The position numbers and the translations under genes are program-made. Positions 4,537 through 19,306 of a stretch of DNA of 37,710 bases are shown piece after piece (position 1 is the first letter of the stretch; each line of letters starts with the position of its first letter). The notes under the pieces were generated by a model. It had not been told where the DNA came from, did not search any database, and saw only the letters and a list, made by a program, of their open reading frames with translations. This DNA is from Ekhidna sp. Lineage in GTDB: Bacteria > Bacteroidota > Bacteroidia > Cytophagales > Cyclobacteriaceae. The DNA is taken from NCBI GenBank assembly GCA_013214445.1, contig JABSPG010000008.1, forward strand, positions 1 to 37,710, in the 5' to 3' direction.

Positions 4537-4794
4537 ATGCAAACACAGTCAGCAAGAGTACTAGAGGCTATAGAACTCTATAACAAAAAACACGGTGGAA
4601 AGATTATGAACCAAGTACAGCTTGCCATGAAAGTATGGCCTGAAAAGGAATACGAACAGGCAGGTCAAAGGATGCATCATTTGCTTTTTAAAGGGCGACC
4701 GTGGAACCTAGATTGGCTTAGGTCAATCGCAAAAATTTTGGAAGTGGACTATAATTTTTTACTAGACTTAGAAGCACATGAACAAACTAATTGA
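4537..4794 (+). CDS. small HTH-like protein
   Basis: MNQVQLAMKVWPEKEYEQAGQRMHHLLFKGRPWNLDWLRSIAKILEVDYNFLL resembles an XRE-like HTH. Confidence 0.5.
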   Translation: MQTQSARVLEAIELYNKKHGGKIMNQVQLAMKVWPEKEYEQAGQRMHHLLFKGRPWNLDWLRSIAKILEVDYNFLLDLEAHEQTN

Positions 4795-5281
4795 GGCAAA
4801 TTATCAGAGCATTGTAGATCGGGGGTTGATTACTGCCGATACTAAATACAGGGATTTCTTTAAAAAGCTCACAGAAGAGTATAACGAAGTCAGGATTGCG
4901 AAGACAAAGAAAAACAAGGATGAGGAGTGGTGTGATGTCATTCTAGTGGCTCTTAACTACTTTAGGCATCATGATAAACCCGTTGAGAAGCTTCTCTGGG
5001 AAAAGGTCAAAAAGAATCAATACAGATCAAAACGTAAGAATATGGAATTACAAGTAGGTCAAAGTATCACCACGGCCACTATTGAAGAGGCTATTATTTT
5101 GGGCGAAAAGGAAAGCAAAGGTAGCCTCCTTTACATCTGCTTGGACAAGGCGCGGCTGATCCTTGTATCAGTCAGGCCAAAGAATGTTGTACACGCTATG
5201 CCATCGACCAAAGACGTTTCGGGCTACTTCAACAAATACGGCTCACAGCTGCGTAGGCTGGGTATTTACGTTCCTGAATAG
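4778..5281 (+). CDS. MazG-like NTP pyrophosphohydrolase-related N-terminus with unknown C-terminal region
   Basis: KKLTEEYNEVRIAKTKKNKDEEWCDVILVALNYFRH resembles MazG helices (EExxE...DxxxD). Confidence 0.5.
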   Translation: MNKLIEANYQSIVDRGLITADTKYRDFFKKLTEEYNEVRIAKTKKNKDEEWCDVILVALNYFRHHDKPVEKLLWEKVKKNQYRSKRKNMELQVGQSITTATIEEAIILGEKESKGSLLYICLDKARLILVSVRPKNVVHAMPSTKDVSGYFNKYGSQLRRLGIYVPE

Positions 5282-5311: not shown

Positions 5312-5335
5312 AAAGAGGTGTAAGCCTCTTTTTTT
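5312..5335 (+). terminator. rho-independent terminator
   Basis: AAAGAGG-TGTAAG-CCTCTTT followed by T-run. Confidence 0.8.
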
Positions 5336-5337
5336 GC

Positions 5338-5345
5338 TATCTTAG
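5338..5345 (+). promoter_or_regulatory. weak candidate -7 box TATCTTAG
   Basis: One mismatch to TAnnTTTG; 7 nt before the first hairpin of the structured RNA; no clear -33 box. Confidence 0.35.
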
Positions 5346-5446
5346 TACTGTATAACAAAAGCAGGGTCGGAGCTACTTTTGTTATTCCTGAATCTTTTGA
5401 TTCATTGCCCCTTTGCCACTCCGACGGCTTAGGGGCTTTTTTATTT
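5346..5446 (+). ncRNA. candidate structured RNA with kissing loop and terminator
   Basis: Hairpin 1 ATAACAAAAG(5352-5361)/CTTTTGTTAT(5376-5385); hairpin 2 TGAATC TTTT GATTCA (5389-5404); hairpin 3 GCCCCT(5407-5412)/AGGGGC(5431-5436) plus inner GCC/GGC; loop 1 GTCGGAG 5366-5372 is exact reverse complement of loop 3 CTCCGAC 5419-5425; then T-run. Confidence 0.6.
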
Positions 5447-5449
5447 ATT

Positions 5450-5677
5450 ATGAAAAAGACTTTTTTAAGTTTTTACCGTAGAATCTTCAATCAGGATCAG
5501 ATAATAAGTGTAGATGTAGTAGACGATTCATGCAATGGGTTTGTGGCTATTCATGACGGATTGGAAGACGAGGAAAGCCCTTTATTTGTAATTAACGACC
5601 CCAAAACCGCAAGGCTTTTATCTGAATCTCTTGATCAGGCTGCCAGATATTTAGAATCAAAACAAAAGGGAGATTAA
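5450..5677 (+). CDS. small hypothetical protein (start re-called from 5405)
   Basis: ORF track start at 5405 lies inside the terminator hairpin; ATG at 5450 (MKKTFLSFYRRIFNQDQ) follows the T-run. Confidence 0.6.
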   Translation: MKKTFLSFYRRIFNQDQIISVDVVDDSCNGFVAIHDGLEDEESPLFVINDPKTARLLSESLDQAARYLESKQKGD

Positions 5678-5678
5678 T

Positions 5679-6512
5679 ATGAGTCAAGATAATGCATATT
5701 CAATCACGCCTTACACGGTGTTATCAGATAATAGATTAACCTTCGCATCCAAGTGCCTATACGGTGTTATACACAGCCTAAGCAATGGCAGAAAATGTAC
5801 CGCAACAAACAAGTATTTAGCAGATGTTTTGGGTACGAATATCAAGACAATTCAAAGATCTTTAGACCAATTATTAGACCTAAAATTGATTAATAGAGAG
5901 GTCAAAAACGCATGCAAAAGAGAGTTGATTTGTACTGTAAGATCCGAAAATACCCACCCCGAAAATGTACCTACCCCCAAAATAGGGGTACCCCCAAAAT
6001 GTACTAAGGGGGTAGGACAAAATGTACTAACCCCCCACCCCGAAAATGTACCAACCCCCCTAGGACAAAATGTACCAACAGATAATATATTAGATACTAA
6101 AGTTGATACTATAATTGATAAAAAAAGTAAGAAGCGCACAAAGTTTATCAAACCTACTAAAGATCAGATCAGGGAGTACTTCACTGAGCTAGGATTGAAC
6201 GGGCAATCTGAAAGTTTAAGCGAACGATTCTACGACTACTACGAATCCAACGGATGGAAGGTTGGACGCAATAGCATGAAGGACTGGAAAGCGACTTGTA
6301 GAAACTGGAAGAAAAACCAAAACCAAACGCAACAAAAAAATGAAACCAATAAGCGAAATAACCGAGAATCTCACCAATACCGCACGGGAGACTTTGACGC
6401 AGAACTCAACGCACGCGCCGCCGAATGGATCAACGCAGGAAAGCCCATCGAAGAACTTCAGGAAATCGTTAACCGAGAATATGAAGAGCGCCAAAAAAAA
6501 GCAGTATCGTAA
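5679..6512 (+). CDS. replication initiator-like protein with N-terminal winged helix
   Basis: ASKCLYGVIHSLSNGRKCTATNKYLADVLGTNIKTIQRSLDQLLDLKLI wHTH; central (E/Q)NVPT repeats encoded by iterons; followed by DnaC-like gene. Confidence 0.75.
   Translation: MSQDNAYSITPYTVLSDNRLTFASKCLYGVIHSLSNGRKCTATNKYLADVLGTNIKTIQRSLDQLLDLKLINREVKNACKRELICTVRSENTHPENVPTPKIGVPPKCTKGVGQNVLTPHPENVPTPLGQNVPTDNILDTKVDTIIDKKSKKRTKFIKPTKDQIREYFTELGLNGQSESLSERFYDYYESNGWKVGRNSMKDWKATCRNWKKNQNQTQQKNETNKRNNRESHQYRTGDFDAELNARAAEWINAGKPIEELQEIVNREYEERQKKAVS
5962..6075 (+). repeat. iteron-like direct repeats AAAATGTAC (candidate replication origin)
   Basis: Exact AAAATGTAC at 5962, 5996, 6019, 6043 and 6067 (last four spaced 23, 24, 24 nt), interleaved with C/G runs; one outlying copy at 5792. 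Confidence 0.7.
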
Positions 6513-7095
6513 ATTCAGGATAGCGATAGGCAACGAGCTGATAAGGCTCTCAGGCAAAAAGCCTGTGGATATGATCTGGTTTGATGAGTACAATCTGGTT
6601 TTCAACAAACTTTGGGAAATGCAATTTGGAGACGAAGAAAAAAAAGGCTTTCTCTTAGCTGGTGAAAAAGGAACGGGTAAAACACTATTCATCGAGGCTC
6701 TGAGAAAAACACGGTACATCAGAGCGCGGCGCGTAAGCTGTAAGGAGATCGAACTACAAGTCAAAAGGGACGGCCAAAAAGCGATCTACCAATACGCAAC
6801 TGCGCACACCTCCAACGGACGCCCTAACGTGTGGATATTCGACGACATTGGAACCGAAAGAAAGGTCTTGGATTATGGCAATGAGTATGAAATCATCGAA
6901 GATCTTATACACGCTCGCTATGAAGCGTTCGACTTCCAAAATATACCAACATACGGCACAACGAATTTGAGCGCAATAACAACGCCCGAAAGCGGCAAAA
7001 CAACGCTCACAACAAGATACGATGACCGTGTATTCGATCGGATGCGAAAAATGATGCATTTTATCACGTTTCAAAACACTAAATCACTGCGCTAA
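6481..7095 (+). CDS. DnaC-like helicase loader / P-loop ATPase (start re-called from 6340)
   Basis: GEKGTGKTLFIEAL Walker A, VWIFDDIGTE Walker B, YGTTNLS sensor; ATG 6481 (MKSAKKKQYRKF) reduces overlap with upstream gene to 32 nt. Confidence 0.8.
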   Translation: MKSAKKKQYRKFRIAIGNELIRLSGKKPVDMIWFDEYNLVFNKLWEMQFGDEEKKGFLLAGEKGTGKTLFIEALRKTRYIRARRVSCKEIELQVKRDGQKAIYQYATAHTSNGRPNVWIFDDIGTERKVLDYGNEYEIIEDLIHARYEAFDFQNIPTYGTTNLSAITTPESGKTTLTTRYDDRVFDRMRKMMHFITFQNTKSLR

Positions 7096-8550: not shown

Positions 8551-9915
8551 ATGGACACAAACAATCAGATTACAAATGAATTGCAAACCGTTGAACCTTC
8601 CAAGGCTGACGAGATTAGGGCAATCTTTGCGCCAATGGCCGACACGGTTCAAGATTTTGAAACCAGATTCAAACCTTTCAAAGATCTCAAAGACGAAGAG
8701 ATTACACCCGAACAAAGCACGGCTGCCAGCGTGCTAAGGAAGGAAATGAAGAAGGTAAGGAGCAACGTTGAAAACGAGCGTAAACGCTTAAAAGAGCCTT
8801 TTTTACGAACAGGGAAGGCAATTGATGGAATAGCGAACATTTATAAAGCAGCCATGGGTGACATGGAGACACGGCTTGAACATGTCATAAAGATCACCGA
8901 AGTATTAGAGCAAAAGCGCATCGACCGCCTACAGATTGACCGTGGTATAACCATGGCTAAGTACATGGAAGAGGTACCGGACAACCTTGGAACTATGGAA
9001 GAGGACGTTTTTATGGCTTACTACGAGGCCAAAAAGAAAGCATTTGAGGACGCCGAAGCCGCGCGAATTGAGGCCGAAAGAAAAGCGGAAGAGCAGAAAG
9101 TAATTCAAGAACTACACGAAGACCGCAAGAACACCCTTCTCGATGTGTGGGCTTTTCTATCGGAGGACGATAAGCAGATCAACTTTGGCCTGATCGACGA
9201 TGCCCGTTTTGGCAAAATCTGGAAAGAGGCCAAAGAAGCCAAGAACAAAAAGGATAACGAGCTTGCAGAATATCAAGCTAAGCAAAAGCGATTGAGGGAA
9301 TTGAGAATTGAAAGGATAAACCAGTATAACCCATACCTAGGATTCTACGCTGCGGAATTTAAAGGCGAAATCGAGGATCTATCACAAACTGAGTTCGATG
9401 AAATGATTCAAGATGCAGCTGCTAATGTAGCAATTGATCAGACTAGAACGACTGAGATTGAAGAGCTTCATGATTTCTTCGTTCATGAAAATTTTGGAAT
9501 CTGGCACTACTGGCAATACCCAAGCGCGGAATGGGATGTGTGCATTAAAGATGCTCAAGAGCTCAAAGAGATTTATCGTCAGAGGGTTGAAGATCTTGAA
9601 TCTAATGGCTTTATGGATACGGGAAGCCCTATCGTACTAGCTCAAATGCTCGAAAAACAATACAGCGAAATGCTATCCAAGATGATAGAAAAGCGCGAAA
9701 AGGAGCAAGCCGAAAAGGAAAGGATTGATAAGTTAGAACGCGAAGAGGTCGCGAGAATAGAGGAGGAGAAAAAGAAAAGGGAGGCGATGAAAGCTAGTGA
9801 TTCAAAGAAATGGGCAATGCTCAAAGAAGAGGTTCTAAAGGTTATTGATTCATACGGCTTTAAGTCTGAGAAGTATCAATCTTTTCAACTTGAACTGAAA
9901 GAAATAGTAGATTAA
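8551..9915 (+). CDS. large coiled-coil phage protein of unknown function
   Basis: Long K/E-rich helical ORF with AAAACACATG start context. Confidence 0.6.
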   Translation: MDTNNQITNELQTVEPSKADEIRAIFAPMADTVQDFETRFKPFKDLKDEEITPEQSTAASVLRKEMKKVRSNVENERKRLKEPFLRTGKAIDGIANIYKAAMGDMETRLEHVIKITEVLEQKRIDRLQIDRGITMAKYMEEVPDNLGTMEEDVFMAYYEAKKKAFEDAEAARIEAERKAEEQKVIQELHEDRKNTLLDVWAFLSEDDKQINFGLIDDARFGKIWKEAKEAKNKKDNELAEYQAKQKRLRELRIERINQYNPYLGFYAAEFKGEIEDLSQTEFDEMIQDAAANVAIDQTRTTEIEELHDFFVHENFGIWHYWQYPSAEWDVCIKDAQELKEIYRQRVEDLESNGFMDTGSPIVLAQMLEKQYSEMLSKMIEKREKEQAEKERIDKLEREEVARIEEEKKKREAMKASDSKKWAMLKEEVLKVIDSYGFKSEKYQSFQLELKEIVD

Positions 9916-9917
9916 CC

Positions 9918-9936
9918 AAAGCCCGAAAGGGCTTTT
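9918..9936 (+). terminator. terminator-like hairpin AAAGCCC-GAAA-GGGCTTT
   Basis: 7-bp stem, GAAA loop, short T-run merging into -7 box. Confidence 0.65.
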
Positions 9937-11012: not shown

Positions 11013-11215
11013 GCGAAGTAAAGCAAGTAAACAGGTTTGTCACCGTTGTCATAAAGGAAGGTGAACCTGATAACGTGAACGCATTTCCGAGCCTTACCAA
11101 GGCATGCAAGTACACAGGTGTAAGCTATTCGACGGCTTCAAAGCAGGGGATGGAATCAGTACACGGCTATCCTTTTACTTTGAATGGGTATAGGTTCTAC
11201 AAATGCAGGATATAA
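11009..11215 (+). CDS. hypothetical protein (start re-called from 10976)
   Basis: ATG 11009 (MSEVKQVNRF) in ATGA overlap with 26-aa ORF. Confidence 0.6.
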   Translation: MSEVKQVNRFVTVVIKEGEPDNVNAFPSLTKACKYTGVSYSTASKQGMESVHGYPFTLNGYRFYKCRI

Positions 11216-11216
11216 A

Positions 11217-11543
11217 ATGGCTTATCGTCGTTTAAAAAAATCAGACATCCCGTGGTTACTAAAAACTACGGGACTTTTTTTTGAAAAGGAGGTGCTAGGC
11301 ATCCCTGATCGTAAGTTTAGATTTGATTTCGCTTGCAAAGATTACAAAATAGCAATTGAATACGACGGTATTATATCGGCAAAGTCAAGGCATACAAGCG
11401 TAAAGGGTTTTACTACGGACTGTGAAAAAACCAACCTAGCACAAGTACACGGATGGATAGTATTGCGTTATACGGCTTTAAACCTATCTTCGATCATCGA
11501 ACAGATCGAACTAGCCAAAAAATTGAGAGATGAAATTAACTGA
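11217..11543 (+). CDS. PD-(D/E)XK-like endonuclease (start re-called from 11184)
   Basis: RFDFACKDYKIAIEYDG ... HGWIVLRYTALNL resembles VRR-NUC/DUF559-type nuclease core. Confidence 0.55.
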   Translation: MAYRRLKKSDIPWLLKTTGLFFEKEVLGIPDRKFRFDFACKDYKIAIEYDGIISAKSRHTSVKGFTTDCEKTNLAQVHGWIVLRYTALNLSSIIEQIELAKKLRDEIN

Positions 11544-19157: not shown

Positions 19158-19189
19158 AAAGCTCTGGTATTTTATCAGGGCTTTTTTTA
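19158..19189 (+). terminator. rho-independent terminator
   Basis: AAAGCTCTGGT-ATTTT-ATCAGGGCTTT with T-run. Confidence 0.75.
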
Positions 19190-19195
19190 TATTTG
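19188..19195 (+). promoter_or_regulatory. candidate -7 box TATATTTG
   Basis: Exact TAnnTTTG, overlapping terminator T-tract. Confidence 0.45.
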
Positions 19196-19240
19196 TTGCA
19201 AGAGCTTTAAACCCTCTTTAGGATCGCACCTAAAACATTC

Positions 19241-19282
19241 GTCCTTATCAGTGTTTGCCGCACTGATAAGGACTTTTCTTTT
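19241..19282 (+). terminator. strong rho-independent terminator
   Basis: GTCCTTATCAGTG-TTTGCCG-CACTGATAAGGAC, perfect 13-bp stem, T-rich tail. Confidence 0.85.
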
Positions 19283-19298
19283 TAACCCGTCTGGTTAT

Positions 19299-19306
19299 TA
19301 TCTTTG
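19299..19306 (+). promoter_or_regulatory. candidate -7 box TATCTTTG
   Basis: Exact TAnnTTTG in noncoding region. Confidence 0.45.

Follow-up and report, generated by a model that had tools for sequence, protein, structure and literature searches.

What is the string of hairpins that precedes the replication genes on a contig from Ekhidna sp., and does it have counterparts elsewhere? The window analysed here, the whole stretch of 37,710 nucleotides, is an entire contig of the genome assembly and carries a single copy of the element, at positions 5346–5446 of the forward strand. A preliminary description had placed three hairpins between 5352 and 5436 with a T-run after them, and the sequence and its computed fold put all of them there. 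The minimum-energy fold of the 101-nt stretch is −34.7 kcal/mol (z = −4.2; 0 of 200 shuffles equally stable), and the hairpins H1, H2 and H3 folded singly each give z between −3.9 and −4.7. H1 (5352–5385) has a stem of 10 bp (5352–5361/5376–5385) and an inner AG/CT pair (5363–5364/5373–5374) that narrows the apical loop to 8 nt, GGUCGGAG (5365–5372). H2 (5389–5404; stem 5389–5394/5399–5404) is a small linker hairpin. H3 and its T-run (5407–5442) comprise stems at 5407–5412/5431–5436 and 5415–5417/5426–5428, an 8-nt loop ACUCCGAC (5418–5425) and TTTTTT at 5437–5442; with a G+C-rich stem (5407–5436) and a T-run immediately 3′ of it, H3 has the anatomy of an intrinsic terminator, a call to be weighed with the frequency of T-runs in AT-rich phages in mind.

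The loops of H1 and H3 match each other. GUCGGAG in the first (5366–5372), a strand that covaries in relatives, is the exact 7-nt complement of CUCCGAC in the second (5419–5425), as had been pointed out before. Because a loose kissing-loop scan gave many chance matches, we adopted a strict scanner with a measured false-positive rate, which demands an 8-nt NGTNNNNN loop and, further along, a hairpin that has a T-run and carries the 7-nt complement. On Markov sequence it returned two matches in 4.1 Mb, a rate at which the window, with both strands counted, would hold about 0.04 by chance. Both the window's hairpins and the perfect match of their loops are genuine features that chance does not explain.

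The flanking sequence suggests how the element is transcribed. Just upstream, an intrinsic terminator (5312–5335, forward strand; 8-bp stem at 5312–5331, then a T-run) closes the preceding transcription unit, in agreement with the preliminary description. The −7-like box reported at 5338–5345 is present as TATCTTAG, a degenerate form of the Bacteroidota −7 box; the motif listing of the window has no exact TAnnTTTG at this position, where most relatives have the exact motif. From this box, transcription by the host RNA polymerase is predicted to start at about 5350, just before H1. The T-run of H3 ends almost at the ATG (5450) of a 75-aa ORF (5450–5677), 14 nt past the H3 stem, which has no Pfam or PHROG match. 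Behind it on the same strand follow a replication initiator-like protein (5679–6512; HTH_36; PHROG replication initiation/DnaD-like loader) and a DnaC-like helicase loader (6340–7095; Pfam/PHROG searches), and RecT, a YqaJ-type exonuclease and a helicase-methylase are also encoded around the element. Its earlier placement ahead of the replication genes thus stands, with the degenerate promoter box directly before it. Since the 5312–5335 terminator is just upstream and H3 lies ahead, transcription from the 5338 box must pass H3 to get to the replication genes; as the sequence reads, these genes and the 75-aa ORF are reachable from that box in no other way.

Some further features of the neighbourhood deserve mention in their own right. 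Inside the initiator-like gene, positions 5953–6079 hold iteron-like direct repeats with cores ACCCC(G/C)AAAATGTAC and TAGGACAAAATGTAC, possibly a phage origin within the initiator gene; the origin of lambda is similarly located within its O gene. Upstream, a 167-aa ORF (4778–5281) has no Pfam or PHROG match and contains an EEYNEV...DEEWCDVILV stretch that, judged by eye, resembles MazG.

Is the element confined to this contig? At the DNA level, phages and related genomes gave nothing beyond short, weak matches, and searches of viral contigs with each of two neighbouring proteins gave no match. With the helicase-methylase as query, relatives came to light in viral contigs and in Flavobacterium phages. 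In L020, L026 and Flavobacterium columnare phages the element follows the helicase-methylase gene and precedes a replication-type gene or a small ORF. In L026 and L020 the parts behind the helicase-methylase come in the same order as in the window, with loops AGUCGAAG/ACUUCGAC and AGUGGUAG/ACUACCAC, respectively. Near the corresponding place, phage FCOV-S1 pairs loop AGUAGAGA with UCUCUAC, and in its second copy AGUAGUGC with GCACUAC; the T-run of H3 is broken in copy a of this phage, as are some other H3 T-runs. Over the upstream flank FCL-2 and FCOV-S1 share 95% identity, yet at the site of the FCOV-S1 element FCL-2 has a wholly different H1 and H3, with a 7-nt match of CAUCCAC to GUGGAUG. 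The loop differences among these four relatives are the compensatory changes that a functional loop–loop helix predicts.

On this basis we defined a family by a promoter box, H1, a 6–9 nt loop–loop complement, a terminator-like H3 and a nearby start codon. Pattern and covariance-model searches yielded 37 elements, each checked by hand, which among them carry 27 distinct loop sequences; the pattern GTAGAGTNNNNNCTACAATTAA was found in 37 viral contigs and in five genome contigs besides. Nearly all members have their own promoter box and a terminator-like hairpin, and the run after H3 is T-rich in every one of the 37 checked elements (5 to 8 T per window of 8). H2 is optional, being present in L020, L026 and FCL-2 and missing from most other members; in most of the family the linker is about 20 unpaired nucleotides of nearly constant length. 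With Rfam (release 15) the window had no match at gathering score and only weak, chance-level matches in a permissive search, and no relevant match was obtained across the eight loci searched. Pattern searches of 396 Bacteroidota genomes and of a species-genome collection gave no convincing bacterial member; model R2 had no match in 148 genomes, a negative that was flagged as uninformative. A full-text literature search, partial in coverage and thus weak as evidence, turned up no description of the element. By these comparisons, the element belongs to a family of short leader RNAs that had not been catalogued before and that stand where early genes of Bacteroidetes phages begin.

The element in the window has the parts that define the family, except for an exact −7 box, and is syntenic with L020, L026 and the Ficleduovirus phages. 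Covariance model R2, which is built without the kissing pairs, gives it 19.2 bits (E = 0.5). Because this score is at chance level, membership rests on anatomy and part order, synteny and the exact kissing match, by which we assign the window element to the family as a member that has diverged and whose −7 box is degenerate. Two other places in the window with similar R2 scores, 11210–11285 and 19185–19285, were rejected as they contain no meaningful loop match. In the region 19170–19300, a TATATTTG box stands at most about 100 nt ahead of a strong terminator hairpin, GTCCTTATCAG..CTGATAAGGAC, with no loop complementarity; this is possibly a separate small transcription unit. Weak R2 matches in Riemerella RAP44, Flavobacterium 6H and others were likewise not accepted as members. 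Near a promoter-like box, L205 and L207 (Riemerella phage RAP44) have long inverted repeats, GTTAATCCAAGTG and GTTAAACCATCG, around a further hairpin.

Several comparisons bear on whether the loop–loop contact itself is maintained. When matches were picked on H1 alone, all 30 with an upstream TAnnTTT box had an exact loop partner whereas none of the 12 without the box did. A wider pattern gave at least 53 unique elements with a loop partner, all of them with TAnnTTTG although the pattern does not require the TA; among the matches listed, 10 unique ones had no loop partner, and the TAnnTTTG box was found in 0 of these 10. Homologous loci that keep the hairpins and lose the complementarity had been named at the outset as the observation that would speak against a kissing RNA, and no member with promoter and hairpin but without complementarity was seen among the pattern matches listed.

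An alignment of 45 elements bears out the conservation and covariation of the kissing pair that the preliminary description had proposed to look for. Every one of the 315 cells of the kissing helix holds a Watson–Crick pair, an outcome that is partly by construction as exact complementarity was an inclusion rule, and the large set also required the H1 GTAG/CTAC motif, so that uniformity is inflated, and includes many contigs that are close relatives. In kissing pairs 3 to 7, both partners are altered in 18, 2, 15, 18 and 3 sequences, respectively, with no one-sided changes; an earlier set of 14 elements gave the same picture, and the terminator stem and inner H3 stem covary too. Given the inclusion rule, independent support comes from three other sources: the pattern test of box against loop partner, the new members found with model R1, which leaves the loops unpaired, and the comparison of own with mismatched loops, in which an element's own loops match over at least 7 nt for 26 of the 27 distinct loop sequences as against 1.7% of pairings between mismatched elements. 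These data argue that the loop–loop contact itself is under selection, its letters varying in matched pairs between phages.

Phages may carry more than one copy. Of the three copies in snusmum6-1, one precedes a helicase operon, another a NUMOD4/HNH endonuclease and the third a helicase/primase operon; the L149 contig has four by model score, and the L118 contig three. Loops from one genome matched each other over no more than 5 nt among those compared, and each copy has its private loop pair. Single copies are present in phage 11b, with an 8-nt loop match, and in Cellulophaga phi19:1 (GUACGAC/GUCGUAC, read by eye), and Croceibacter P2559S has a weaker one with a 6-nt match. L040 has copies at 6879–6956 and 9856–9932, in both of which a further small hairpin flanks the kissing strand of H3; the first has its start codon further off, and the second follows a sigma-70-like sequence (TTGACA/TATAAT), from which the design may reach beyond Bacteroidetes. 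Downstream genes, several of them named by sequence appearance, include NUMOD4/HNH and GIY-YIG endonucleases and primase-like, helicase-like and initiator-like proteins. Since many copies precede homing endonuclease genes, we dropped the reading of the element as a replication-primer RNA. The leader very often lies directly 5′ of free-standing NUMOD4/HNH and GIY-YIG genes (L118, L123, L133, L138, L145 and many of L214–L281), which suggests that it moves with, or is adopted by, mobile homing-type endonuclease genes.

What might such an RNA do? The preliminary description had offered two options, a discrete small RNA or an attenuator/antiterminator leader, and the spacing to the downstream gene favours the latter. 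Among the matches listed, the next ATG lies 24–36 nt past the kissing strand in 48 of 51, whatever the gene, a near-fixed distance that a small RNA gene would not maintain. In the annotated phages FCOV-S1, FCL-2 and 11b and for one snusmum6-1 copy, the element occupies an intergenic gap; the two others of that phage, at 9705 and 14681, overlap annotated ORFs. On balance we lean towards a cis-acting attenuator or antiterminator leader that gates read-through into early genes, with the kissing contact formed within one RNA. In such a scheme, positions 5335–5449 would constitute a phage leader module composed of promoter box, H1, linker, H3 and start codon. Host RNA polymerase would initiate just upstream of H1, to judge from the box; H1 would form first and its 8-nt loop would pair with that of H3 as the latter emerges, so that the RNA would close into a compact kissing-loop fold within one molecule, with an intrinsic terminator as its second half. 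With the gene start within a few nucleotides of this terminator, expression from the module's own promoter would need read-through, and the module could set or switch the frequency with which polymerase enters the early replication genes. We infer regulated termination at H3 from this arrangement. As covariation indicates that pairing is needed and variation that the letters are not, a structural role is likelier than recognition of a loop sequence. A bolder and more tentative idea, which we regard as possible though doubtful, is that of a protein-free RNA switch, in which the pairing of an upstream loop with the loop of the terminator itself decides whether host polymerase continues, and which would have spread through Bacteroidetes phages and at least one phage with sigma-70-like promoters, borne by homing endonuclease genes as well as replication operons and with a private pairing code for each copy.

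The same sequence could also be a small RNA gene in its own right, of about 90 nt, in which H3 ends the transcript, the stable kissing fold has phage or host targets in trans, and the downstream gene is expressed by leakage. The promoter box and terminator of nearly all members, the stable fold and the presence of several copies per phage are all consistent with this. We nevertheless think it unlikely: the short spacing to an unrelated downstream start codon is near-constant, with the interval from T-run to ATG too short to hold a second promoter; the loops, which are the parts most exposed, differ freely between members and are paired to one another, so that they offer no conserved seed; and copies within one phage have no common loop pair. 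Much the same degree of doubt attaches to a 5′ leader that protects the mRNA or controls translation, where H3 would hinder ribosome or nuclease and the T-run would be only an AU-rich initiation region. H1 does begin at about the predicted 5′ end and H3 does end near the start codon, but a G+C-richer base of H3 that runs straight into a T-run is how intrinsic terminators are built, and this build is kept in L040, whose second copy has sigma-70-like promoter sequence before it and whose first has a more distant start codon.

The complementary loops might also act between molecules, joining RNA copies into dimers or rings, as the kissing loops of phi29 pRNA do. Covariation cannot separate contacts within a molecule from those between molecules, and in the window a folded H2 leaves only a short linker from H1 to H3. 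GOLLD and ROOL, phage-associated RNAs of several hundred nucleotides that assemble into large homo-oligomers, likewise have covarying kissing loops, which proved to be intermolecular (PMC12286853). The kissing leader, at about 90 nt, with only two main hairpins and directly before protein genes, is far simpler than these, and most linkers, at about 20 unpaired nucleotides of near-constant length, are long enough for contact within the molecule. The private loop pairs of multi-copy phages also favour a within-molecule contact, and we consider the intermolecular alternative highly improbable.

The contact invites comparison with other leader RNAs. Purine-riboswitch-type leaders have two hairpins joined by loop–loop pairing upstream of an expression platform. 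The likeness extends to the position in a 5′ leader; the kissing leader differs in having neither a three-way junction nor a conserved ligand core, in its free kissing letters and in the absence of an Rfam match. The pT181 attenuator is located before a replication gene. In attenuators of this type, a leader RNA makes loop–loop contact with an antisense RNA supplied in trans, and this contact is coupled to an intrinsic terminator (PMC3753616). Both systems tie such contact to an intrinsic terminator in a leader RNA; there the partner is an antisense RNA whose binding causes the terminator to form, whereas here it would be in cis, the terminator's own loop. HK022 put RNA, to which the element had been likened at the outset, has two stem-loops that act on later terminators via the zinc-binding domain of the polymerase beta′ subunit (PMC9378689). 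Position and copy number uphold that likeness: both are phage RNAs downstream of early promoters (early here as judged from gene content), with two main stem-loops in about 70 nt for put and about 90 nt here, and both occur in multiple copies, two (putL and putR) per HK022 genome against up to four in the phages studied here. It fails on anatomy, as put is not described as a terminator whereas the second hairpin of the kissing leader is itself terminator-like, with a T-rich run in all checked members, and the loops kiss. By analogy, the comparison is one of "works like" only; we do not claim membership, and the description of put sets the two apart.

To our knowledge, early-gene control in Bacteroidetes phages is little studied, and a literature search on it found no paper with the terms tried. 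The element described here is compact, frequent and easily testable, has very strong comparative support, and is present in cultured phages, among them the Flavobacterium columnare phages, snusmum6-1 and its relatives, and phage 11b. If the kissing leader does gate termination, it would represent a new link between RNA tertiary structure and an intrinsic terminator, and its naturally matched, mutually non-matching loop pairs would provide both a ready series of compensatory mutants and a set of orthogonal parts.
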